A model generated the notes under the pieces. It saw only the letters and a program-made list of their open reading frames with translations. It had not been told where the DNA came from and ran no database searches. From positions 1 through 47,692 of IMG/VR virus record IMGVR_UViG_3300023294_001123: a DNA stretch of 47,692 nt; one strand, written 5' to 3'. Source of the DNA: a virus. Position 1 is the first letter of the stretch; the number at the start of each line of letters is the position of its first letter. The translations under genes and the position numbers were made by a program. Positions 5,710 to 32,055 of the stretch are shown piece after piece.

Positions 5710-6438
5710 ATGAAACACGGACATTACTCGGACAATGAAATACCCAAAAGTGTTGCTGTGGATCGCAAAACGATTATGGATTACACTGTGAACTCATCAG
5801 GCTATCGCTGTCCAGAATGGCGACCCTTGCCCAATGGCAAGAAGAATGTGGTGATACTGGGTTGCTCACACACATTTGGGGAAGGTCTAGACGACGGCGA
5901 TGTCTGGGTGGATCAGTTGCACGGTCGGGTGGACCAAAACAGACTACGTTTCTGGAATCTCGGACAGCCCGGGGCATCCGCGGACAAGATTGTGAGAATA
6001 CTGTATGCCACGGAGACAGTCCTGTTTCCAAAAATCGTCATCATATGTTGGCCGCTGTGGAGTCGCCGAGAACGGTTAGACAGCTATGCCCAAAGCCTCA
6101 TGAGTTACGATCTCCTGTTAAAAACAGAAACAGATCTAACAGATCAGAATAATTTTTTAAAAAATGTTTTCTTTGCTGAGAAGTTTGCAGAGCGACAGGG
6201 AGCTAGATTGTTTCACTGCTTCGCACAGGATGTGTATGACATACCCAATGCATTGGTCTACGATGACACCAGTCTCGAACTGTGCTGGCCCGAATGGGAT
6301 AGACATCATCTACCGGGTGCAAAACGAGAACACACGACCTCTCCAAGCCTGGCCAAGGACGGTGTCCACTACGGAGTAGAACATCATAGAGTGTTTGCTG
6401 AAAAGTTCTACAATAGATTCAAATCAAAATTAAAGTAA
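5710..6438 (+). CDS. SGNH/GDSL hydrolase-like protein
   Basis: A 242-residue protein. Residues about 47-60 (VVILGCSHTFGEGL) match block I of SGNH hydrolases, with Ser53 as candidate nucleophile. Near the C-terminus Asp217 and His220 (DGVHYG) form the block V D-x-x-H. A GQPGAS segment follows a beta strand as block II often does. A clear block III GxND is not seen. Family members de-esterify lipids or remove acyl groups from glycans. With a neighbourhood full of glycan genes, O-acetyl or ester chemistry on a surface polymer is the likely role (inference). Its 3' end overlaps the convergent radical SAM gene by 9 nt. Confidence 0.65.
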   Translation: MKHGHYSDNEIPKSVAVDRKTIMDYTVNSSGYRCPEWRPLPNGKKNVVILGCSHTFGEGLDDGDVWVDQLHGRVDQNRLRFWNLGQPGASADKIVRILYATETVLFPKIVIICWPLWSRRERLDSYAQSLMSYDLLLKTETDLTDQNNFLKNVFFAEKFAERQGARLFHCFAQDVYDIPNALVYDDTSLELCWPEWDRHHLPGAKREHTTSPSLAKDGVHYGVEHHRVFAEKFYNRFKSKLK

Positions 6439-7476
6439 TGTCCATGTTCTAGCTATGGGATCTCCCTGGACTCGCTCCAACAGTTCAATAAATTTTTCAT
6501 CTTTGTAAAAATCCTGCTCTGCAAAATCAATCCCCGTGTTCCAATTTTGTATTTTGTTAAAAAACATTCTGTCGGCATCATACCGGTGTGCCAGTTCCAG
6601 CATCAACGGAATCTCTCGCCAGTTGTCTTGTTGCACAACAAAATGCAAATTAAATTTAAAACCGTGTTGTTGTTTTAATGTTTTTGCACTTTCTAAATTT
6701 TCTATAATTTTGTCAAAAGATCCGCCTCGTCTTAATTTTTCGTAGGTTGTCTTGGTAGCACCGTCGATGCTGATGTTCAACACATCTAATTTTTTAAACA
6801 TCGTCTGAAGTCGCAGATGCATCTTTTTAACCAGCAATCCGTTGGTCTGTATGGTGAATCTAACGTTAGGGAGATCTTTGATGGCTTTAACAAAATATCT
6901 GTAAATCAAACTGGCAAACGGATCCCCGTCACTGCCCACATGTAAATTAATTGTGTGTGATTGTGATCTCACATATTCAATAATTTTATCCGCCAGGGCA
7001 TATTTTTTCCTCAATTGGAATTTGTCTCGTTCAAATATCTGGTGTGTGCGACAGCTGGGGCAACTGAGATTGCAACTGTCGTCGATGGCGAGTCTTATGT
7101 TTTTTATCTGTTTATCAGGTACACCAACAGGCCACCCGCGGGTGGCGCCGCGGCGTTTGCCACTGGGTGTGATCTCACTATTATCACCACTTAGCAAATA
7201 AGAACACTGTCGATTGTTACAGTATCGATAAGATCCATCAGCGATGGAATTCTGTAATTTTTTAGCCATGGCTGAATTTACGATATCTCCCAGTGACTGT
7301 GTGTGTAGATTGCCCGCACTCTGTGGCAACCAAGCGGTACACTCGCACAGGTAGCAACTGCCCGCCTTGTCTATCAGCACAGTGTCGTATGGTCGGGGAC
7401 AGCGGTTAGAAATGCCTAGATTTTTAGCAGTGTCTATGCCGTACCAGTCAAACAGTCTTTTATTGATTTTGATCAT
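6430..7476 (-). CDS. Radical SAM protein with extra N-terminal cysteines
   Basis: A 348-residue protein. The cluster motif CNLSCPSC (C-x3-C-x2-C) lies near residues 135-142. A TNG stretch and an ISIDGA stretch follow at the places usual for SPASM-type radical SAM enzymes. Further cysteines lie N-terminal to the motif (CYLCEC near 42-47, then C..C near 86-91), an inverted arrangement compared with the C-terminal SPASM domains of peptide-maturing enzymes. It probably makes an SAM-derived radical to modify a peptide, sugar or nucleotide; the substrate is unknown. A late-type promoter core lies 11 nt upstream. Confidence 0.85.
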   Translation of the reverse strand: MIKINKRLFDWYGIDTAKNLGISNRCPRPYDTVLIDKAGSCYLCECTAWLPQSAGNLHTQSLGDIVNSAMAKKLQNSIADGSYRYCNNRQCSYLLSGDNSEITPSGKRRGATRGWPVGVPDKQIKNIRLAIDDSCNLSCPSCRTHQIFERDKFQLRKKYALADKIIEYVRSQSHTINLHVGSDGDPFASLIYRYFVKAIKDLPNVRFTIQTNGLLVKKMHLRLQTMFKKLDVLNISIDGATKTTYEKLRRGGSFDKIIENLESAKTLKQQHGFKFNLHFVVQQDNWREIPLMLELAHRYDADRMFFNKIQNWNTGIDFAEQDFYKDEKFIELLERVQGDPIARTWTLL

Positions 7477-7487
7477 GTGTTAACGCA

Positions 7488-7495
7488 TATTTAAT
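7488..7495 (-). promoter_or_regulatory. Late-type promoter core ATTAAATA
   Basis: Upstream of the radical SAM gene at 7476, with an 11 nt gap, longer than for most genes here. Confidence 0.4.
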
Positions 7496-7528
7496 TCCAC
7501 TAGCAGTTATACCAAAATAATTAATAGT

Positions 7529-8605
7529 ATGGAACTAACTCTTTGTGATAATCAACAGTTACAAAAAATAACTCGTTACGCAGGACAGCACAGACACTAC
7601 GATATTGAGATAACCAACAAAAACGTATTCTCTCACACATTCGATTATCAAGAAAGTAATGTGGACGAGTATGTGATTAACAATGCTGTTGGGATCAGTG
7701 GCAGTCGCTCGCATCATTATTTTGGTATTATAAAAAATCAAAACTATTATTTTACAGGATGGTGCAAAGGAAACAAAGCGTCCAGGTCAGCCAGCGACTT
7801 CTGGAAAATACTTCCTGCAAACAATATAGGAGCAACAATATCAGTTGATATTAACAACAAGAACACAGTTGAATTTAACGAACCGGTGAATTTATTATTC
7901 AGTATAAATGCTTATTGGCACTGGTTCTGTGAAGACTTACCATTGTTTAAATTTTTAAGAACCAACTCTTATAAAATTGTAACCAACAAACTGTCAGCCT
8001 GGCAACGCGAGTCTATAAGTTTTTTCCCAGACATAGCAGAACGTGTTGTGGAGGTTGAAACACCTGCAGTGATCAAATCCCCAGAGCTCCATCTATTTTC
8101 TAAACCCGACAGCGGAGCAGGAAGAAATGCCAGCTGGGTTACACATTTTTTAAAAGAAAATTTTAATCCGTCCACCAATTATACACCTAATAAAAAAATA
8201 TACATCAGTCGTAACGACGCACAAGCTCGTGCAGTAGACAACGAAGATGAAGTGAAAAGTTTTTTATCTGCAAAAGGATTTGACTTGTACGATAACTTCG
8301 CACAGTATTCTCTGCAACAAAAAATAGATATGTTTAATCAAGCTCAATTGGTAGTAAGTCCTACAGGAGCAAATCTTTGCCACTGTTATGCCATGCAACC
8401 AAACACCACGGTGATAGATTTCAATCACGAGTTTCTGCTAACTGACGAGCACTGGTACAATAACATTGGTAGTGCGTCGTCTTTAACATGGAAGACGTTT
8501 GCGGCCGGCACCGGTAAGAGGAATCTGAGACCTAGAGAAAGAAACAGGAACCTTGTGGTTGACTTAAATACCTTAAACAACACAATCAAAAATGCCGGAT
8601 TTTAG
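7529..8605 (+). CDS. GT61-like (DUF563) glycosyltransferase
   Basis: A 358-residue protein. The middle part has the HWFCEDLP segment and the C-terminal part has YISRNDA, then LVVSPTGANLCH and NTTVIDFNHE. These correspond to the conserved order of glycosyltransferase family 61 (IGPHGAGL-like loop, PGT..IE strand). It would transfer a sugar from a nucleotide donor to a glycan; acceptor and donor are unknown. It overlaps the downstream FkbM gene by 14 nt, so the two are likely translated together. Confidence 0.75.
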   Translation: MELTLCDNQQLQKITRYAGQHRHYDIEITNKNVFSHTFDYQESNVDEYVINNAVGISGSRSHHYFGIIKNQNYYFTGWCKGNKASRSASDFWKILPANNIGATISVDINNKNTVEFNEPVNLLFSINAYWHWFCEDLPLFKFLRTNSYKIVTNKLSAWQRESISFFPDIAERVVEVETPAVIKSPELHLFSKPDSGAGRNASWVTHFLKENFNPSTNYTPNKKIYISRNDAQARAVDNEDEVKSFLSAKGFDLYDNFAQYSLQQKIDMFNQAQLVVSPTGANLCHCYAMQPNTTVIDFNHEFLLTDEHWYNNIGSASSLTWKTFAAGTGKRNLRPRERNRNLVVDLNTLNNTIKNAGF

Positions 8606-9155
8606 ACAGCAAGAAACTGACAACACATACGAGCTTTGCAAAAATCATATTAAAAAATTTAAGCATGCTATAGACATTGGTTGCGACGTGTTTCAATTTG
8701 CTGGAAAACTAGAAAAAGACTTTGAGCACATTCATTGTTTTGATTTTAGAAATAAAGAAAAACAAATAAATTCATTTGTTTCTAATCCAGACAAAATAAC
8801 ATTTTATCACACAGGACTGGGAGAAATCAAAGATACGAGATATACTAAACCCGGTGTAGGAAGAATAAAAAGTGATGTGCCGCACGGAAACTCTACAATG
8901 AAAGTTCCAATTAATACACTAGACTCTTTTGGTCTCTTTGAAGGCATTGACTTTATTAAGATGGATGTGGAAGGATACGAGCCCAAGGTTATACTAGGCG
9001 GCATGCAAACTATAGAAAAAAATAATCCAGTTATATTATGTGAAATAAACCGTGGAGATTTTACGGCCAAAGACTTATTAGAAAACATTGGTTATAAATG
9101 TGTTGACGTCTATTACAAATTAGGACAGCCACACGATTATCTATTTGTTAGATAG
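8592..9155 (+). CDS. FkbM-family methyltransferase
   Basis: A 187-residue protein with the FkbM signature: an AIDIGCD motif I, a HCFDF strand, an NTLDSF segment and the strongly conserved IDFIKMDVEGYE (about residues 117-128) followed by LCEIN. FkbM-type enzymes O-methylate sugars and other hydroxyls. Coupled to the preceding GT61-like gene, it probably methylates the glycan that enzyme builds (inference). Its 3' end overlaps the convergent gene by 15 nt. Confidence 0.85.
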   Translation: MPDFRQQETDNTYELCKNHIKKFKHAIDIGCDVFQFAGKLEKDFEHIHCFDFRNKEKQINSFVSNPDKITFYHTGLGEIKDTRYTKPGVGRIKSDVPHGNSTMKVPINTLDSFGLFEGIDFIKMDVEGYEPKVILGGMQTIEKNNPVILCEINRGDFTAKDLLENIGYKCVDVYYKLGQPHDYLFVR

Positions 9156-9872
9156 CTCGATACCGTTGCGTTTAAGGAAACTTAATATTCGTTGTTTTGT
9201 ATGATCCACAGTTTTTTTTCTGCCCGCGGCATGAAAAAAATATATTTTTGGTGCGTCGCTAAAGTAAGCTCTTTTATAATTAAACTTCCAGCTCAGTCGT
9301 TCAATCCCCACAGCACTGTTACACACTGCCCACAACAATATATCTCCGTCGTGTGTGTCAAACGTTTGATATTGTTCAATCCACTTTTTAGTTTTCTCAA
9401 CCACGTGCTTGTTTAGTATAAACACTCCAGGCTGGAATCCTCGTTGCTTAATAATTTCAATGTCGGTGTTGGTAACCAATCCTTGCTGTAGTTGGTCGTA
9501 GTGTTCTTGGCAAGAAGCATTTTGGAATTTATTTGATTCGCACACTTTAAGAGTTTCTATATTATTATACTGTGCAAACACATCCGGTGCACCGGGCATG
9601 GCAAAAACATCTGAGTCTACATACAGTATCTGATCATAACGTTCCCACCACGTGGCATCCAGCCACAGATCAAATCTTTCAAATGTTGGATGTCTATATT
9701 TTAATTTTGGTTGGGTTATTAATTGGTAGTCACAATTGTACCTTTCAGCATATGCTCTAAAACTCTGCTCGCTGAGTTTGGCAAAATTATCCTGCTCGTT
9801 GCTGAGATTGTTGTACTCGGGATCTGAATATAATCTCGGATCTATAAAATATTGAACGATGCAATTTCTCAT
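9141..9872 (-). CDS. GT-A-type glycosyltransferase with DxD motif
   Basis: A 243-residue protein. The donor-binding LYVDSDVF, with a DxD motif, is near residues 84-91. An N-terminal IVQYF strand starts the fold, and the segment FQPGVFILNK resembles the acceptor-side loop of GT8-like enzymes. It is the last gene of the six-gene operon with the RuBisCO-like protein; its ATG follows the upstream TAA directly. Donor and acceptor are unknown. Confidence 0.75.
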   Translation of the reverse strand: MRNCIVQYFIDPRLYSDPEYNNLSNEQDNFAKLSEQSFRAYAERYNCDYQLITQPKLKYRHPTFERFDLWLDATWWERYDQILYVDSDVFAMPGAPDVFAQYNNIETLKVCESNKFQNASCQEHYDQLQQGLVTNTDIEIIKQRGFQPGVFILNKHVVEKTKKWIEQYQTFDTHDGDILLWAVCNSAVGIERLSWKFNYKRAYFSDAPKIYFFHAAGRKKTVDHTKQRILSFLKRNGIELSNK

Positions 9873-10514
9873 TTAGTCTGCCGGAACGTATAGTCTGTCA
9901 TTTTTAGTTGTGTTACAAATATATTTGTATCCTAGTTTTTTTAAGTATTTGTCTGTTTTTTTACTTTCGTAATTAAAAAATTTTTCTGTCAACTCTCGCT
10001 TATGGAACTCGACAATCATCACAGGCATGTGTTTTTTTATAGTATGTTCTCCCCCTGATAACACAAAGTATTCATATCCTTCAGTATCAATAATTATCAT
10101 ATCAACCTTTTCAACATTCAAATCGTCGAGTCTTTTGATTTGATATTTTTTATCATTTCCTAATAGGTCAATATGTGTTGCTACAGAGTTCTCGTTTTTA
10201 GAAATAGCCACTAGTTGTTCAGTATTTCCTAATCCGTAAAGATGTTGTACAATATTTTCAATATTGTGTTTTTTTATATTTGCTGTGAAACAGGTAGATA
10301 CATCATTATCAAAATCAAAAGTATGTACTGTGTTGAATTTTTCTGCGAGAAATTTAGTCTCAAATCCATAATTAGCGCCAACTTGTAAAACACAGTCTTT
10401 TTGTTTGACATGTGTTTCTATTATTTCACCTAGTTTACTGTACTCATTAAAATTATTATAGAAGTTTTTTTCAGTTTCTAATATGTTCCATCCTTGATAA
10501 TCTTTTGTTTTCAT
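9873..10514 (-). CDS. FkbM-family methyltransferase (second copy)
   Basis: A 213-residue protein with motif I VLQVGANYGFET (about residues 42-53), HTFDFD and the FkbM hallmark MIIIDTEGYEYFVLSGG with IVEFHKRE after it. It is quite different in sequence from the copy at 8592, so this is not a recent duplication. Its ATG overlaps the stop of the upstream gene. As part of the operon it is a good candidate for O-methylation of the sugar product. Confidence 0.85.
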   Translation of the reverse strand: MKTKDYQGWNILETEKNFYNNFNEYSKLGEIIETHVKQKDCVLQVGANYGFETKFLAEKFNTVHTFDFDNDVSTCFTANIKKHNIENIVQHLYGLGNTEQLVAISKNENSVATHIDLLGNDKKYQIKRLDDLNVEKVDMIIIDTEGYEYFVLSGGEHTIKKHMPVMIVEFHKRELTEKFFNYESKKTDKYLKKLGYKYICNTTKNDRLYVPAD

Positions 10515-11224
10515 GTTTGATGTCCGATTAGAAGATTACCGCCTGTGACATTTAAATAATTGTTATCTGCCCATTGGTGGTGTAATATTTGATACCACCC
10601 CCATTCTGCTCCTACTAAATTTTTTTCCTTAAACAGTTTTTCAACATTTTTTAATTTGTATCTAGGATGAATTATAATATGATCCCACAGGTACGGCCCT
10701 GTGCATTTTTCACAATCTTTGTAAGTGTGCGTGTGTAACGGAGAATCAACATCTTTGCCCGGCGCACTTCCGGCTATACCGATCACTGTTCCCGTAACTG
10801 CTTTCTCTATTAATGGAGTGAAATCAATTTTGGTCGATAATAAACTATCGTATCTCAACTTTATTATGGTTTTGTATTTTTTAGGCAGTGCATTTGTTAA
10901 CCAATAATGAGCTAAAATTTGTTTTGAATTATTTTTAGTTTTTTCTAGTAATCCGGGTTTTCGAAATATTTTTCCATCTGCGGTTTTTGTGTATCTTCTC
11001 CATATCTTACAATCTGGTTTGTATTCTGTATCTAGTAGATTGTGATAGTCATACTGTGGTTCATTAAAAAAATAACAGTCAGTCACATCAAGCGGCGGAT
11101 ACCCTGTCCACTGCATATAAAAAAAATCGTATGGAAAAACTTTTTTGGCTCTTTCTATTGCTTCTTTGTAGCCTTCTCTGGCTAAACCAGATACGCAGAC
11201 AGCAACTTCGTCTGCACGAATCAT
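10511..11224 (-). CDS. Putative glycosyltransferase
   Basis: A 237-residue protein beginning MIRADEVAVCVSGLAREG. The frame is open a little further, but this ATG overlaps the stop of the RuBisCO-like gene (ATGA), so it is the preferred start. The segment IIKLRYDSLL resembles the strand with R-x-D found in some bacterial capsule and LPS glycosyltransferases. HIIIHPRYK and a Trp-rich C-terminal part follow. No family can be assigned with certainty; position and the R-x-D strand are the grounds for the call. Confidence 0.55.
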   Translation of the reverse strand: MIRADEVAVCVSGLAREGYKEAIERAKKVFPYDFFYMQWTGYPPLDVTDCYFFNEPQYDYHNLLDTEYKPDCKIWRRYTKTADGKIFRKPGLLEKTKNNSKQILAHYWLTNALPKKYKTIIKLRYDSLLSTKIDFTPLIEKAVTGTVIGIAGSAPGKDVDSPLHTHTYKDCEKCTGPYLWDHIIIHPRYKLKNVEKLFKEKNLVGAEWGWYQILHHQWADNNYLNVTGGNLLIGHQT

Positions 11225-12408
11225 TTTGTGAAACCCCATTTGGCAATAGCCTGCTCGTATTCAATGCCGTGATTCTTGTCCACTGCTTGTCGCATTGCTC
11301 GAGCACCTGCAACTGTGCCTCCTGGGTGTCCGTGTATGGCTCCGCCAGCGTTCGCTAGATAATCTACGCCTGCTATACTATTAACCTTCTGTACTAGCCC
11401 TGGATTAAATCCGCAACTCAGTGCTGGTGCAGTATTTCCGGCTCTCAGTATTTCTAAACACTTTAGTATCTCTTCAGGATTGTCGTTGCTGTAGCCGCCT
11501 ACCATTCCGGTTTGAATGGTGTCCACACCCATCAGTGTGGCTAGCTGACACATCACTGGCCAACTGATACTGAACCGGTGATTCACATCTGTTGTAACTT
11601 TTGCACCACTGCTCTGGTAATGCAGGAACAATGGTAGATCTAATTTCCTGATACTGTTGTAAGCGCCATATCCACTGAACACGTTGATGTGTACTCCGTT
11701 GCCGCCCAGCTCGTGAACACGCTTCACACGATCGGTCAGCACGTGTGGGTCACAGTTGATAGTGTGACAGAACACGATTTTACGACTCTGTTTGGCCAGA
11801 TAATTTGCGATCAGTTCCACACGTTGGTCTAATGGACAGATCACAGGGTTGACCATTATCTCGTCTTCTTTGATAAAGTCCACTCCTCCGTCCACCATCT
11901 GTTTGACCATCTCCAATAAAATAGTTGGAGTTATCCCTATCTTGGGTTTGACTATACCGCCGAGCAAAGGCTTGCCGTGCTGTCCTGTAAATTCTCTTAT
12001 TCCAGATAGACCAAACTTGGGTCCAAGGAAATGTTTGGTCACTGTTCTAGGTAGGTCCAATCCTACCAATCTGCATTTTGTGATAATATCAATATCTATG
12101 TGTCCTCCCATCAGCTGGCACAGCATGTGAGCCATTCCGTCTGTTGCCCAATCTGTGTTGACCACAGGAAATGCAATCTTTACAAGTCCTTGTGTTTGTT
12201 TTTCCAGTTTTGTTTTCTCTCCAACTATCACACAACTGTGGTTTTCAAACAGCTCGTCTGTCTCCCATCTATTACGCACACTCGGATTGCCCACGCTCTG
12301 ACCGATCGCAAGTGCCCACGCGGCCTCCTTGAGATTGGCACTGCTGGCCATGTCATAGGTGGCTATGAAATATTTTTCACGATCTATATCTGTGTTGTAG
12401 AATAACAT
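11221..12408 (-). CDS. RuBisCO-like protein (form IV type), large-subunit homologue
   Basis: A 395-residue protein, near normal length for the family. The metal and carbamate site is intact: Lys180, Asp182 and Glu183 in DFIKEDE match K201, D203 and E204 of plant RuBisCO. Lys154 and Lys156 in GGIVKPKIG match K175 and K177; His263 matches H294; Ser331 matches S379; GHPGG matches the phosphate-binding GHPWG. Residues needed for carboxylation are changed: loop-6 K334 is Tyr306, H327 is Gln299, R295 is Tyr264, N123 is Gly102, and E60/T65/W66 are replaced by Gly/Asn/Pro. It should therefore act as an enolase, isomerase or decarboxylase on a ketose-like phosphate rather than fix CO2 (inference). The ATG at 12408 overlaps the TAA of the nucleotidyltransferase gene (TAATG), and its TGA overlaps the next ATG. 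Confidence 0.92.
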   Translation of the reverse strand: MLFYNTDIDREKYFIATYDMASSANLKEAAWALAIGQSVGNPSVRNRWETDELFENHSCVIVGEKTKLEKQTQGLVKIAFPVVNTDWATDGMAHMLCQLMGGHIDIDIITKCRLVGLDLPRTVTKHFLGPKFGLSGIREFTGQHGKPLLGGIVKPKIGITPTILLEMVKQMVDGGVDFIKEDEIMVNPVICPLDQRVELIANYLAKQSRKIVFCHTINCDPHVLTDRVKRVHELGGNGVHINVFSGYGAYNSIRKLDLPLFLHYQSSGAKVTTDVNHRFSISWPVMCQLATLMGVDTIQTGMVGGYSNDNPEEILKCLEILRAGNTAPALSCGFNPGLVQKVNSIAGVDYLANAGGAIHGHPGGTVAGARAMRQAVDKNHGIEYEQAIAKWGFTK

Positions 12409-13127
12409 TATTTGTCTTGCCGGTGGTTGGCCAAGAAGTTGTTGAGTTCCTCCGGTGTGCCCATACCCCACATTGCATCCACCTGACTGACTTTTATTTT
12501 TTTACCATCCTGCACAGCTTCATTGTACACAGGACACACATAAAATTCATTGTTGGTTCTGATGTCCTTTGCAATCATTTGATCAGCGTATTTCACAAAG
12601 TCTGATCCTCGTTTCCAATGATAGATGCCCACTGTGGCATTGTTTGATATGGGATTCTTCTCAGCAACCTCTGTGACATATCCATGCTCGTCTATCTTTG
12701 CAAAACTGTGTTTTGGATGCACACTGTTGAAAGTCAATATGCCTCCATCTGAGTCTTCGTGATTGAATGAACCAATTGTTTCAGTGCTGTTCCATTCTAT
12801 CCATTGATCTGAATTTGAGATTATCAAAGGTTCGTTGTTGTCGATCAATTCCCGAGCCTGTAATATAGTGCAGGCCGCTCCCTCGGTTAAGCCGTCTATT
12901 TGCACAATAGCACAGCCAGGTGCAATCAACGTCAACAGTCGTTGTAGATCGTATTTCTCGTAGTGTGACTTCTGTACCAGGAAGATGTACTGTCCTTGTA
13001 GGTTTAAATTCTCCACCACTTTAGCAATCATGGGTTGTCCTTTGACTTCTATCAAAGGTTTGGGAAATGTGTAGCCGGCCTTTTCAAATCTAGATCCAGC
13101 TCCTGCCATTGGTACTATTATTTTCAT
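12408..13127 (-). CDS. Sugar- or polyol-phosphate nucleotidyltransferase
   Basis: A 239-residue protein. The N-terminus MKIIVPMAGAGSRF...KPLIEV (residues 1-28) is the signature G-x-G-x-R...K-P of nucleotidyltransferases. IISNSDQW (near 98-105) holds the metal-binding Asp, and EKNPISN is typical of this family. It would activate a phosphorylated sugar, polyol or related compound as an NDP derivative. Similar stand-alone enzymes occur in bacterial capsule loci. Its start overlaps the GDPD-like gene and its stop overlaps the RuBisCO-like gene, which implies one pathway. Confidence 0.85.
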   Translation of the reverse strand: MKIIVPMAGAGSRFEKAGYTFPKPLIEVKGQPMIAKVVENLNLQGQYIFLVQKSHYEKYDLQRLLTLIAPGCAIVQIDGLTEGAACTILQARELIDNNEPLIISNSDQWIEWNSTETIGSFNHEDSDGGILTFNSVHPKHSFAKIDEHGYVTEVAEKNPISNNATVGIYHWKRGSDFVKYADQMIAKDIRTNNEFYVCPVYNEAVQDGKKIKVSQVDAMWGMGTPEELNNFLANHRQDK

Positions 13128-13561
13128 TGTGGTTGCTCCTTGTATTGTTTGACATTATCTCCGCAGATGCCTGCAAACTGTTTCCAGTCATCTCTCTGTT
13201 CCGGATGCACACATATGCATCGTTCGCCACCCGGTTCTCCCGGATATGCCCAGATGTACCCACGACTTGTGATGGTGTACCTGTCTTTGTCATGCCAAAA
13301 ACAGTGTATGTTCTTTTTAATGAGTTCATGTAGTGCTGTGTGGTCCTTTGCGTGTACCCACAAGGGATTAGACTGTAACCACCCGGGTGTTACTGCTTCT
13401 CCTGGCACATCGTGTCCTAGATAGAAATATTCTCCGTCCCATTTGCAAATATCAATTTCCACATCAAATCCGTCTGCAATTGCTTGAGTAATGTATGAAA
13501 CTGTGTTTTCCTGTGCAGTGTCTATACCGCTGGTGTTCCCTCGGTGAGCAATGTATATCAT
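13124..13561 (-). CDS. Glycerophosphodiester phosphodiesterase-like protein
   Basis: A 145-residue protein, shorter than typical GDPDs (about 240). It keeps the family pattern: YIAHRGN (His6, Arg7), AQENT (Glu-Asn-Thr), DGFDVEIDI with acidic metal ligands, and YLGHD. The end of the TIM barrel is missing or very divergent. Proteins of this type also occur in capsule gene clusters. It may release or transfer a phosphoglycerol-like group. It is the first gene of the operon, behind a late-type promoter core. Confidence 0.7.
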   Translation of the reverse strand: MIYIAHRGNTSGIDTAQENTVSYITQAIADGFDVEIDICKWDGEYFYLGHDVPGEAVTPGWLQSNPLWVHAKDHTALHELIKKNIHCFWHDKDRYTITSRGYIWAYPGEPGGERCICVHPEQRDDWKQFAGICGDNVKQYKEQPQ

Positions 13562-13673: not shown

Positions 13674-13988
13674 TTAACGACCTTTGAAGTACTTCTCTAT
13701 CTTGTCTGCTTCGTCTGTGTGCTGTTCATGGTCAGGCAACGGATCTTTTTTCTTTGTGATCACAGGCCATTGTTCAGCATATTTCTTGTTGAAGTCCACC
13801 CAATCACCTGCGTCCATAGGTTCTATAGCATCAACAGGACACTCGGGTTCACACACGCCACAGTCGATGCACTCGTCAGGATTGATAACCAGCATGTTCT
13901 CACCTTCATAGAAACAGTCAACAGGACACACCTCAACACACGATGTGTGTTTGCACATCACGCACTTGTCGTTAACTATGTAGGCCAT
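13674..13988 (-). CDS. Seven-iron-type ferredoxin (FdxA-like)
   Basis: A 104-residue protein starting [17 protein letters not shown]. Two cluster motifs are present: C-x2-C-x4-C-x3-CP (residues about 9-21) and C-x2-C-x2-C-x3-CP (about 40-51). The wider first motif and the C-terminal extension of about 45 residues match bacterial [3Fe-4S][4Fe-4S] ferredoxins rather than plant-type [2Fe-2S] ferredoxins. The start inside the 3' end of thyX (17-nt overlap) suggests co-translation. It is a small cytoplasmic electron carrier; plausible partners are ThyX, the radical SAM enzymes in this window, or a host reductase. Confidence 0.9.
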
Positions 13989-14610
13989 GCAGGTATTTCC
14001 AACTGATGGGAAACTGTTCAGCACACAAGTCTCTGATCTGATCAGCTACCTGTTGAGTTTCTTGTTGTGTGTCTTTGGCACATCTTAGATTGCACACTCG
14101 AGCAAATGCGTATAGTGTTCCAGACCATATCCATTCAGTCATCATGCTTTGTGGCAACACACTCCTTGCTTGTTCCGGTGCAATGCCTTTTGAAATCATT
14201 GTGTTGTAGATAATCAAGCACTGTTGCGTTACTGTGTCCAACATGTGTTGATCTGTGAGATCCAACTCCACAATGCCTGCGGATCCTTGTTTGGAATCTT
14301 CTGGTCGACCTCTCCATTCTTTTGTCTCGTACAGTTCTGGATCATTGGAAACATATCTTCTAGAAACTTCATTCCACACAAGACCCACTTGATGTTTGAC
14401 CAGCTGTCGAGCAACGAACACAGGTGCTTTGATTCGAAACTGTAGACTTGCATGAGCAAATGGTGACCAATGATTGTGTTCTGCTAGAAACTTAATAAGT
14501 TTTTCATCTCGTGGTTCAAACTCGTCTTTGAATTTTGCATAAGAAACCCTAGCCGCATTTACTACAGAAAGGTCTGACCCCATTTTATCTACCAGTTCAA
14601 CCTGCATCAT
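13972..14610 (-). CDS. thyX: Flavin-dependent thymidylate synthase ThyX
   Basis: A 212-residue protein. The ThyX signature region is present as [15 protein letters not shown] (about residues 73-87), a variant of RHRx7S seen in marine relatives. [12 protein letters not shown] and the C-terminal region are also family-typical. The enzyme makes dTMP from dUMP using methylene-tetrahydrofolate and reduced FAD. Its ATG overlaps the gp41 stop (ATGA), so it belongs to the replication operon, where it supplies thymidine for phage DNA. Confidence 0.95.
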
Positions 14611-16046
14611 TGTTCTTCGTCTGAGTGTAATTCGTTCAACAACTGTCGTAGTTTGCCGCCTTCAACTGTGGCTTTTACTTTGCCAAAGTCGTCACCTTTA
14701 CGAGGATCAATTTCTTCTTTGCGAGCATCCTTGGGTGTGTCTGTGGAAACCTTACTCTTTGTTTTTAAGGAATCATACATGGCTGTAGCAGTTTTTTTAT
14801 AGTGCTGTCCAGAATCTGCTTCTTCGTCTAAATTCCTAATTCTTAAAGTGTCTAAATCAAATTCCAAATCCACCTTTTGTCCAACACCAGAACTGCTTCT
14901 AGTCTTCATGAACTGTATTTGATATCTGCCTCGTTCTTTCATTGCTCGACTTGTAAAGATACCAATCACGTTGTCTGCTGTTTGTACTTTGGACAATCCT
15001 CCTGATATATGCGAGTGATCGAACTCAATCTCTTCCACAGATGCTCTGTTCAACTGTGATGCTGTGACCATTAACATCTTGGATTCTGCTCCGTAGTTTC
15101 TCAACTCTTCAGACACATACTTGTCTTTGATGAACAGATCTGCCGGTGAAATCTTTTTAGACTTGGGCATCATAAGATCCAAATAATCTATTAGAATACA
15201 ATCAATTTTCTTTTTGTTCTTGAGCTCCAACTCTTTAATATATGCTTTAATGTCATTAACATTGCTACCACTGGGTAGATATTTTATCTGTAGATTACCT
15301 GATTTTTTATGAAGCATTTTAATTTTCATTTCTACATTGTCAATTTCTGGAAATATTTTTCTTGTGGGCACGCCGGACATCATTGCGTCTAATCTCATCG
15401 CTACCAGTGCTTCACTTAATTCAAAAGATACGTAACACACATTTAGTCCTGCCAACGACCAGTTTACTGCAAGGTTCTGTAAGAACAACGATTTACCTGC
15501 TCCTGATCCTCCTGCAAAAATATTAAGTTCGCCTCGGTTGAATCCGCCAAACAGTTTCTTGTCCACAGATGCCCAGCCTGTGCTGATTTGACCATTGGAG
15601 TTTTTAAGATGTTCCAGTCTGCCTTTAGGATCTTCAAAATAATCTGTGCCTAGATCTCGTGTGAGACTTATGCCCACAGCTTCTTTGATCTTGTCTTCCA
15701 CAGGCGCATAGTCACCACGCTCTAGTAGGTCAGCTGATTCTAATATTGCTCGCTCCATGGCTTTGTGCCGAGAAAACATTTCAAATTCGTCCAACAACCA
15801 GTTAAAGTGTGCAGGGTCAATCTCTCGAGCAGTTTTTAATTTAATATCATGAGGGGCATTAACCTGATCTACTTCAGGCATTACTTTGTACTCTTCTACA
15901 TAGTCCTTGATAAATTTTGCAATAGGCTGTAATTTCCTGTCAAAACTAGCAGGATCAAATATATTCTGAGCTCGAGCAAATGATTCAGCATCTGCCATCA
16001 TCATTTCTAAATATAGTTTCTGTACGTCAAATGTATAATCAGTCAT
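14607..16046 (-). CDS. 41: Replicative DNA helicase, T4 gp41 / DnaB type
   Basis: A 479-residue protein with a RecA-type helicase core. Walker A is GGSGAGKS (residues about 179-186), an SFELSEA segment follows, the Walker-B-like strand is IDCILIDYLDLM, and SQLNRAS comes next. The N-terminal domain is helical as in DnaB. The hexameric helicase unwinds the fork and works with primase gp61. Its ATG overlaps the radical SAM gene by 8 nt. Confidence 0.93.
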   Translation of the reverse strand: MTDYTFDVQKLYLEMMMADAESFARAQNIFDPASFDRKLQPIAKFIKDYVEEYKVMPEVDQVNAPHDIKLKTAREIDPAHFNWLLDEFEMFSRHKAMERAILESADLLERGDYAPVEDKIKEAVGISLTRDLGTDYFEDPKGRLEHLKNSNGQISTGWASVDKKLFGGFNRGELNIFAGGSGAGKSLFLQNLAVNWSLAGLNVCYVSFELSEALVAMRLDAMMSGVPTRKIFPEIDNVEMKIKMLHKKSGNLQIKYLPSGSNVNDIKAYIKELELKNKKKIDCILIDYLDLMMPKSKKISPADLFIKDKYVSEELRNYGAESKMLMVTASQLNRASVEEIEFDHSHISGGLSKVQTADNVIGIFTSRAMKERGRYQIQFMKTRSSSGVGQKVDLEFDLDTLRIRNLDEEADSGQHYKKTATAMYDSLKTKSKVSTDTPKDARKEEIDPRKGDDFGKVKATVEGGKLRQLLNELHSDEEQ

Positions 16047-16947
16047 TTCTTATTCCACATTGTATTTTACAACATTCATGAGCAGAAGTAAATTGTTTTG
16101 TTGAGGCAAAAAACTCTTTTATGCTGTTGTTTTCAAGTATTTGAGTTAATGTGTTGTCTCTTATGTTAAATGATTTTTGTTTTGGTGAGAATACCGATTT
16201 GTATCTATATCGATATGTACCCATCCAACAACACGGATAAAAGTCTCCTTCGGCATCAATGTATAAGCTAGATGCTGGTATACCTTTTTTTAGACAAGAC
16301 GGAGACATATTCGATTTATATGTTGCATCTACCAATACTTTTTTTTGATGCTCGTAGTAATGGTCAATATATTGTTTATCCGGCATTAATTCTTTATTGC
16401 CTAACCATCTATCACTTCTCGTTAATTTAAATTCGTCAAACGATAATTTTTTACTCATTTTTATAGCTTCTGCTATCTGATGTTGGTTGTGTTTGAAAGG
16501 AATAAATTGCCATACCATTTTAAAATTTCTAGTTTTTAATACTGTTACAGCAGTCATAATTGAATTCCACTTAGCATTCTTTCTGTATAAATGATTGGTG
16601 TCTGCTAATCCATCTATTGCAAATACTATGGAATCATCATTTGTTAACATGTTATTGAGCTTCTCCCACCATGCTTTTGTTTTTGCCGACCCGTTTGTGT
16701 GTATGTGCAGGCTACAATTGTTAGCTTTAAATTTTTTACAAAGCTCTAAGAATTTAGAATGATATATTGGATCACCGTTGTTGCCGCATAAATTTATATC
16801 TGCGTTGACTCCTATAAACTTTACAATGTTATCCACATTGATTTCGTGTAAGTTTCTTTTTTTAAATGTTTCGTAAAACCAAGTTCGGTCACACAACGTA
16901 CATTCTAAAGCACATTTACTAGTTGGTTCTATGTGAAAACTAACCAT
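16039..16947 (-). CDS. Radical SAM protein with C-terminal cysteines, inside the primosome operon
   Basis: A 302-residue protein. CALECTLC (C-x3-C-x2-C) lies at about residues 12-19, followed by NLCGNNGDP, HTNGS and AIDGL, as in SPASM/Twitch radical SAM enzymes. C-terminal Cys occur in YPCCWMG and ECCKIQC, likely binding auxiliary clusters. It overlaps both gp41 and gp61 by a few bases, so it is made together with helicase and primase. The substrate is unknown; position suggests a DNA, nucleotide or replication-protein target, but genome packing alone could explain it. Confidence 0.85.
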   Translation of the reverse strand: MVSFHIEPTSKCALECTLCDRTWFYETFKKRNLHEINVDNIVKFIGVNADINLCGNNGDPIYHSKFLELCKKFKANNCSLHIHTNGSAKTKAWWEKLNNMLTNDDSIVFAIDGLADTNHLYRKNAKWNSIMTAVTVLKTRNFKMVWQFIPFKHNQHQIAEAIKMSKKLSFDEFKLTRSDRWLGNKELMPDKQYIDHYYEHQKKVLVDATYKSNMSPSCLKKGIPASSLYIDAEGDFYPCCWMGTYRYRYKSVFSPKQKSFNIRDNTLTQILENNSIKEFFASTKQFTSAHECCKIQCGIRND

Positions 16948-31050: not shown

Positions 31051-32055
31051 ATGAAAATTTTTATAACAGGAGTGGCCGGATTTTTAGGCTCACATCTTGC
31101 TGATTTAATGTTGGCTGGTGGACACACAGTTGCGGGTAATGACAATATGATCGGTGGCTACACAGATAATATACCACAGGATGTAGAGTTTCATCAAGTA
31201 GACTGCTGTGATCTAGAAAATTTAACCAAAGCAATGGAAGGCTGTGACATTGTGTATCATTGTGCGGCCACTGCATACGAAGGACTATCTGTTTTTTCAC
31301 CAGTGCTAGTCACAAGAAATATTTTTGAAGCATCTGTTACAACCATTACAGCGGCCATACGAAACAAAGTTAAACGTATTGTGTACTGCTCGTCAATGGC
31401 AAGATACGGACATCATGAAGAAATGCCGTACCAAGAAACCTACGAATGTCGTCCGCAAGATCCTTACGGTATTGCAAAGAAAGCTGGGGAGGATGTTCTA
31501 AGAAATTTGTGTGAGACACATGGAGTAGAATATGTTATTGCTGTGCCACACAATATTGTTGGGCCAAGACAGAAATACGACGATCCATTTAGGAACGTGA
31601 TGTCTATCATGTTGAATAGAATGCTACAAGGCAAACAGCCTATCATCTACGGAGATGGCAAGCAAAAAAGATGTTTCAGTTATATTGACGATTGTCTGTA
31701 TTGTTTGAATGCTCTGGCTTTCCAAGACAATGTAATAGGCGAAACAGTTAACATTGGTCCAGACGAAGAACCTGTTACCATAAACGAACTAGCAGAAGCC
31801 TGTGCTAACGAAACAGGAATTAATCTAGATCCAATACATCATAAAGACAGACCCAAAGAAGTTAAACTAGCAACCTGTTCGTCAGACAAAGCTAGACAGT
31901 TGTTGGGTTACAAGACCACGACTAATATGCGACAAGCAGTGAAAAAAACTGCTGAATACATTAGAACCAGAGGCACAAAAAAGTTTCAATATCATTTACC
32001 TCTAGAAATTATCAATGAGCATACTCCAAAAACGTGGAAAGATAAGTTAATATAA
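31051..32055 (+). CDS. NAD-dependent sugar epimerase/dehydratase (extended SDR)
   Basis: A 334-residue protein. The nucleotide-binding motif GVAGFLGSH (residues about 7-15), YHCAATA (near 69), and the catalytic SSM...Y-x3-K (YGIAKK near 144-149) are all present. The C-terminal part has the substrate-side IYGDGKQKRCFSYIDD. It probably acts on an NDP-sugar, as UDP-glucose 4-epimerases do, and so supplies donors for the surrounding transferases. Confidence 0.88.
   Translation: MKIFITGVAGFLGSHLADLMLAGGHTVAGNDNMIGGYTDNIPQDVEFHQVDCCDLENLTKAMEGCDIVYHCAATAYEGLSVFSPVLVTRNIFEASVTTITAAIRNKVKRIVYCSSMARYGHHEEMPYQETYECRPQDPYGIAKKAGEDVLRNLCETHGVEYVIAVPHNIVGPRQKYDDPFRNVMSIMLNRMLQGKQPIIYGDGKQKRCFSYIDDCLYCLNALAFQDNVIGETVNIGPDEEPVTINELAEACANETGINLDPIHHKDRPKEVKLATCSSDKARQLLGYKTTTNMRQAVKKTAEYIRTRGTKKFQYHLPLEIINEHTPKTWKDKLI

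Follow-up and report, generated by a model that had tools for sequence, protein, structure and literature searches.

What a RuBisCO-like protein (RLP) contributes to the surface-glycan genes of a virus is the question raised by the DNA analysed here. The whole stretch, hereafter the window, is the IMG/VR virus record IMGVR_UViG_3300023294_001123 of 47,692 nucleotides, and it carries a myovirus-like set of genes for a terminase, tail tube, UvsX-like recombinase, single-strand binding protein and DnaB-like helicase. A sequence-only reading had described six coupled minus-strand genes at 9141-13561, and all six open reading frames were found there with overlapping or abutting ends. The operon is flanked by ThyX/ferredoxin genes on one side and a convergent glycan block on the other. 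Its members, followed by two genes of the glycan cluster, are:

13124..13561, minus strand: mini-GDPD, a shortened protein of 145 aa resembling glycerophosphodiester phosphodiesterases (GDPDs); AlphaFold model matches GDPDs, no Pfam match
12408..13127, minus strand: sugar-phosphate nucleotidyltransferase (NT), 239 aa; PF00483, E 3.8e-11
11221..12408, minus strand: RLP, 395 aa; PF00016, E 1.6e-35
10511..11239, minus strand: GTx, an SG(L/Q)xR-family protein and putative glycosyltransferase; no Pfam match; start perhaps at 11224
9873..10514, minus strand: FkbM methyltransferase; PF05050, E 7.6e-14, and TIGR01444 over cut-off
9141..9872, minus strand: putative GT-A glycosyltransferase, tentatively assigned; no Pfam match
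8592..9155, plus strand: second FkbM methyltransferase, convergent neighbour in the same glycan cluster; PF05050, E 1.2e-11
7529..8605, plus strand: glycosyltransferase family 61, glycan cluster; PF04577, E 8.5e-21

The GDPD and NT genes overlap by 4 bp, as do the GTx and FkbM genes, while the NT stop and the RLP start have one base in common (TAATG) and the FkbM and GT-A genes abut. An ATGA overlap connects the RLP with GTx, provided that GTx begins at the internal ATG at 11224. The ATG at 12408 yields an RLP of 395 aa, with the frame open as far as a GTG at 12471. No cupin gene is present in the window.

Profile searches bear out the NT (43.5 bits against a Pfam cut-off of 21.2) and the FkbM methyltransferase that had been read from the sequence. 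The solved structure closest to the NT is 4evw (E 3.8e-35, profile search), annotated as a nucleoside-diphosphate-sugar pyrophosphorylase; a literature search found no paper on its function. The GDPD-like assignment held for fold and catalytic residues and failed for length. The AlphaFold model of this protein (pLDDT 97.4) matches GDPDs over 136-141 residues, with Z 10.1 to 1o1z and 10.0 to 1v8e (VIA-align). Among 43 homologous sequences, H6, R7, E18, E35, D37 and H50 are invariant, and the motifs HRG, E18-N19, ExD and GHD are invariant or nearly so. Its 145 aa nevertheless fall short of the ~220-250 aa of a full GDPD domain, and it aligns across whole GDPDs with large gaps that reveal the loss of parts of the barrel. 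As for the two putative glycosyltransferases, the open reading frames exist and their family placement found little support. GTx matches a profile of SG(L/Q)xR proteins, which are common in these glycan clusters, with E 3e-19, E-values from in-house profiles being biased towards their seeds by iterative building; the GT-A-like gene matches phrog_28746, of unknown function (E 7e-15).

Fold, active site and phylogeny of the RLP

The window RLP is a genuine member of the RuBisCO superfamily, as the sequence-only reading had stated. It scores 123 bits with PF00016 (cut-off 30.1), and its AlphaFold model has a TM of 0.87 to the form III RuBisCO 2d69 and of 0.84 to MtnW structures. The clade to which it belongs keeps K175, K177, K201, D203, E204, S379, G381 and G403 of the active site, with K175 and the K201-D203-E204 metal/carbamate centre invariant throughout. 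In all members tested, E60 is replaced by G, T65 by N, N123 by G, H294 by Q, K334 by Y and G380 by C; R295 has become K or S (R in one member), and H327 is H or Q. Because K334 and H294 are lost, fixation of CO2 by this protein is very unlikely. Metal-bound enolisation is plausible from the residues present, and since H294 and R295, which other RLPs and RuBisCOs use, are changed, the enolisation chemistry itself may differ.

In the main tree (IQ-TREE, 51 rows), the window clade has 100/100 support and is separate from MtnW (100/99), from OiaX-type proteins (100/100) and from forms I-III. It comprises viral, SAR11, Bacteroidota, Patescibacteria, DPANN, Verrucomicrobia, Elusimicrobia, Legionella and Azospirillum proteins. 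The reference labels were taken from NCBIfam scores and three PDB sequences, and include no DeepYkr or Photo RLPs. An unlabelled group sister to MtnW lies apart from the window clade in this tree, which has no labelled DeepYkr member, and the IV-Photo RLPs 1tel and 2qyg, of a type with no sequence in the tree, have sequence scores below MtnW. Membership was rejected for MtnW, OiaX and the carboxylating forms. For MtnW, a placement that the sequence-only reading had itself named as counter-evidence, TIGR03332 gives 129.6 bits against a cut-off of 513.6, and the RLP falls outside the MtnW clade both in the main tree and in a quick tree of 81 rows. For OiaX, NF042437 gives 142.6 bits against a cut-off of 700. 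Carboxylating forms I-III are likewise rejected, with N123, H294, R295 and K334 replaced and the RLP outside their clade.

Gene neighbours and distribution of the RLP clade

Viral relatives of the RLP were found on 55 contigs in a first scan and on 297 in a second, from which the best 80 contigs were kept; a collection of isolate phages gave no match. Cellular species genomes added 22 contigs with members of this clade, some of them large contigs of cultured Legionella. Contigs from MAGs are possibly misbinned viruses, and the firm cellular carriers are limited to isolates of Legionella and to SAR11 contigs on which housekeeping genes lie nearby. The RLP is rare in the sampled genomes of the SAR11 order (2/297, both among the carriers already found) and occurs in 4 of 22 Legionella genomes, where it adjoins LicD, a neighbour seen in no other RLP locus. 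Plasmids gave RLP matches at only 28-30% identity, mostly of the OiaX type. The system is not confined to phages: chromosomes or contigs of SAR11, Bacteroidota, Patescibacteria and Legionella also carry it.

Among 115 inspected viral and cellular loci, the NT lies within six genes of the RLP in 103, the mini-GDPD in 81, a cupin in 67 and a class-I methyltransferase in 43; genes in these related loci were called with a simple ORF script, and some adjacency counts take in closely related contigs. The recurrence extends to a non-redundant set of 49 loci below 80% RLP identity. There, where the partner is present, it stands within three genes of the RLP in 43 of 45 loci for the NT, 30 of 32 for the cupin and 31 of 36 for the GDPD, where placing the RLP at random within these loci would be expected to give 14.9, 9.3 and 11.1. 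Starts and stops that overlap adjoin the RLP to its neighbours in many of these loci, and the median gap is -1 for the NT and -14 for the cupin. The deepest cellular members (Legionella, Verrucomicrobia and Elusimicrobia) have the RLP and NT alone, and the cupin is absent from the Legionella and most SAR11 loci. Glycosyltransferases, methyltransferases and NDP-sugar epimerases also occur nearby, and some loci, such as L044 and L065, have an RLP with no NT, cupin or GDPD nearby. Neither mtnP nor mtnA was recognised among the scanned neighbours.

Since many unrelated loci, viral as well as cellular, carry these same genes, the gene set of the window is more than chance. The search for the NT and GDPD genes beside the RLP, which the sequence-only reading had proposed, finds them in many other genomes. 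Its picture of an RLP-centred phage glycan operon stands in so far as the RLP is coupled to the NT and GDPD within a surface-glycan cluster, and needs correction as to the rest: compared across genomes, the core of the operon reads NT-(cupin)-RLP-GDPD, with the FkbM and glycosyltransferase genes as variable cargo. In the literature library that was searched, we found no paper on RLPs in glycan clusters and none on a similar gene context.

Sister cassettes in cyanophages and plasmids

Cultured cyanophages carry relatives of the NT and GDPD without an RLP. In the phages Bellamy and SynMITS9220M01, the NT forms one fusion protein with RpiB (PF02502, E 4e-33; TIGR00689 over cut-off), which physically ties a sugar-phosphate isomerase to this NT family. 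The fusion has a cupin and a GDPD beside it, together with a KdsC-type HAD and a PfkB-like kinase. This cassette is like that of the RLP loci in its NT, cupin and mini-GDPD families and in the order NT-cupin-GDPD, but has RpiB, PfkB and the HAD where the window's cassette type has the RLP. In 107 viral sister loci, which were fetched with the cyanophage genes and some of which share a contig, RpiB is present in 96, PfkB in 105, the HAD in 98, the GDPD in 95 and the RLP in none; conversely, no RLP locus contains RpiB, the PfkB kinase or the KdsC-type HAD. The cupin is also found in nucleotide-sugar cassettes without an RLP. In the sister cassette, the logic of isomerase, kinase, phosphatase and nucleotidyltransferase resembles that of the ADP/GDP-heptose pathway (GmhA, HldE or HddA, GmhB and HddC), which differs in its isomerase family and probably in its sugar; the RLP cassette has neither kinase nor phosphatase.

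A third arrangement has a HAD_2 phosphatase, on bacterial plasmids or fused to the NT in S-CAM9-type cyanophages. The plasmid clusters, with the order GDPD/HAD_2/NT/cupin/NT/WavE in Pseudomonas aeruginosa PA83, Ruegeria and Roseinatronobacter and a different order in Scandinavium, share the NT, cupin and GDPD families with the RLP cassette but have the phosphatase rather than an RLP. Their GDPD is diverged and longer, and was not matched by a SAR11 GDPD query. Some RLP loci (such as L045 and L164) contain a HAD fused to an NT, so the RLP is no simple replacement for all front-end steps.

The labels RLP and RpiB change once on the cupin tree, five times on the NT tree and eight times on the GDPD tree (four labels). 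The cupin tree places the RpiB type on a single branch inside the RLP types, and the exchange is therefore one or a few events; many independent swaps are not supported by the trees. With so few changes, and with the RpiB loci found via cyanophage genes, the mutual exclusion of RLP and RpiB is weak evidence that the two are equivalent in function. Overall, what the cassettes seem to have in common is a core of NT, cupin and mini-GDPD that serves an activated sugar, and the front ends alternate between an RLP and a set of isomerase, kinase and phosphatase.

Proposed function of the RLP

We propose, at about even odds, that the RLP enolises its substrate with Mg and without carboxylation, most likely as an isomerase or epimerase of a sugar phosphate, and so feeds the NT of a surface-glycan pathway in which the cupin and mini-GDPD are auxiliary. 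The phosphorylated sugar formed in this way would be coupled to a nucleotide by the neighbouring NT. Auxiliary steps of the same pathway would fall to the mini-GDPD and, in the loci that have one, to the small cupin. The activated sugar would then be placed on a surface glycan, of the host envelope or the virion, where FkbM enzymes would methylate it. It is gene context and active-site residues that suggest this type of reaction, the sequence of steps and the glycan as end use. The probable product of the cassette is an unusual sugar in activated form, meant for surface coatings, and one pathway may make, activate, transfer and methylate a single such sugar.

This reading is favoured by the position of the RLP beside the NT, in viruses as in cellular lineages far from one another, by its glycosyltransferase, methyltransferase and NDP-sugar epimerase neighbours, and by an active site that keeps eight residues and has lost H294, K334, N123 and E60. 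The sister cassette, which keeps the NT, cupin and GDPD but has RpiB, PfkB and the HAD for the RLP, also counts in its favour; that three enzymes stand there against one RLP weighs in the other direction. The RuBisCO fold is capable of isomerisation, since in the MTA-isoprenoid shunt of Rhodospirillum rubrum and Rhodopseudomonas palustris a different RLP is the 1,3-isomerase of 5-methylthioribulose-1-phosphate, a pentulose phosphate, and works with a cupin methylsulfurylase (PMC5893883).

RLPs are the standard example of an enzyme family about whose roles other than carbon fixation little is known. New RuBisCO and RLP groups without known relatives were described from ocean GOS data in 2007 (PMC1821046), and an IV-GOS lineage is named in a review (PMC10173188); the IV-GOS passages of these two sources give neither gene context nor function. 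Likened by description, IV-GOS RLPs and the window clade are both marine, uncharacterised and cluster with no known RuBisCO, and the window clade may be a good candidate for this orphan lineage. We suggest, with somewhat less than even confidence, that phages, SAR11 and other microbes share a nucleotide-sugar pathway, so far undescribed, whose committed step is performed by a RuBisCO-fold enzyme, and that an RLP lineage orphan since the first ocean metagenomics has this role. If true, nucleotide-sugar synthesis would be added to RuBisCO-fold chemistry. The conserved partner set makes the proposal testable: the NT substrate should be the RLP product or a close derivative.

It is unlikely, but worth weighing, that the RLP is instead an OiaX-like decarboxylase or carbon-carbon lyase of an oxo-sugar-acid phosphate, with the branched or shortened sugar then activated by the NT, or that it acts after the NT on the nucleotide-linked sugar. 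OiaX, whose gene context was seen in Rhizobium, shows that the fold can decarboxylate; the metal and lysine centre of the RLP is compatible with this, and the cupin could handle an enol product. However, OiaX and its relatives form their own clade, the NF042437 score is far below its cut-off, and H294, R295 and K334 are kept in OiaX and replaced here. Less probable again is that the RLP is cargo of glycan islands, biochemically unlinked to the NT and serving another host pathway. Unrelated genes do gather in phage and SAR11 islands, and the loci without nearby partners would fit, yet the negative median gaps to NT and cupin and the retention of RLP with NT in distant cellular lineages speak against it.

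Methionine salvage of the shunt type, with the RLP and cupin as its isomerase and methylsulfurylase, is improbable. The pairing is the same as that of the DeepYkr RLP (PMC5893883), set beside ours by description, and a cupin adjoins the RLP in many loci; but the DeepYkr enzyme serves methionine salvage, whereas the window RLP has NT, GDPD and glycan genes around it and no recognised mtnP or mtnA among those scanned. The cupin, moreover, is missing from the window and from the Legionella and most SAR11 loci and occurs elsewhere without an RLP, and the window clade lies apart from MtnW and its sister group (in a tree with no labelled DeepYkr). MtnW itself (IV-YkrW; 2oej, 2zvi), the 2,3-diketo-5-methylthiopentyl-1-phosphate enolase, shares the RuBisCO fold at ~26% identity, and both keep K175 and K201-D203-E204 and have lost carboxylation residues, but MtnW keeps H294 and loses K177, the reverse of the window clade, and has a separate clade and other gene neighbours. 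Finally, a CO2-fixing RuBisCO acting as an auxiliary metabolic gene is hardly credible despite the fold and the highest whole-protein similarity being to form III models (TIGR03326), given the separate clade and the replacements at K334, H294, N123, E60 and R295, and RuBisCO matches in viral metagenomes should not be taken as carbon fixation.

Other genes of the window

Outside the six-gene operon, four further genes of the window deserve mention:

6430-7476, radical SAM/SPASM protein, within the glycan block
13972-14610, ThyX, just upstream of GDPD-NT-RLP
16039-16947, second radical SAM/SPASM protein, adjoining replication genes
31051-32055, NAD-dependent sugar epimerase/dehydratase, separate and distant from the operon

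The epimerase/dehydratase perhaps belongs to the operon's glycan pathway. ThyX is found just upstream of GDPD-NT-RLP in the SAR11 contigs L064, L066, L067 and L068 as well, and this position, common to the phage and several SAR11 contigs, is possibly a coincidence.

Bacterial RLP loci

Two different NTs are encoded at each of the SAR11 loci L064 and L066-L070, and in most of these the RLP is flanked by one on each side, suggesting two activation steps or substrates. On Legionella chromosomes (L076, L077 and L079, ~6600-9930), a divergent LicD gene (PF04991) adjoins RLP and NT, which may hint at phospho-sugar transfer.

Related viral and plasmid clusters

Widespread among viruses is a cassette of KdsC-type HAD, PfkB kinase, NT (frequently fused to RpiB), cupin and mini-GDPD (loci L275-L381 and cyanophage loci L271 and L274), of which we know of no earlier description. 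Glycan clusters with GDPD, HAD_2, cupin, WavE and one or two NTs, the latter annotated as glycosyltransferases, lie on plasmids:

L386:4462-13616, Pseudomonas aeruginosa
L387:8001-15137, Scandinavium
L388:6004-10146, Ruegeria
L390:5001-9179, Roseinatronobacter
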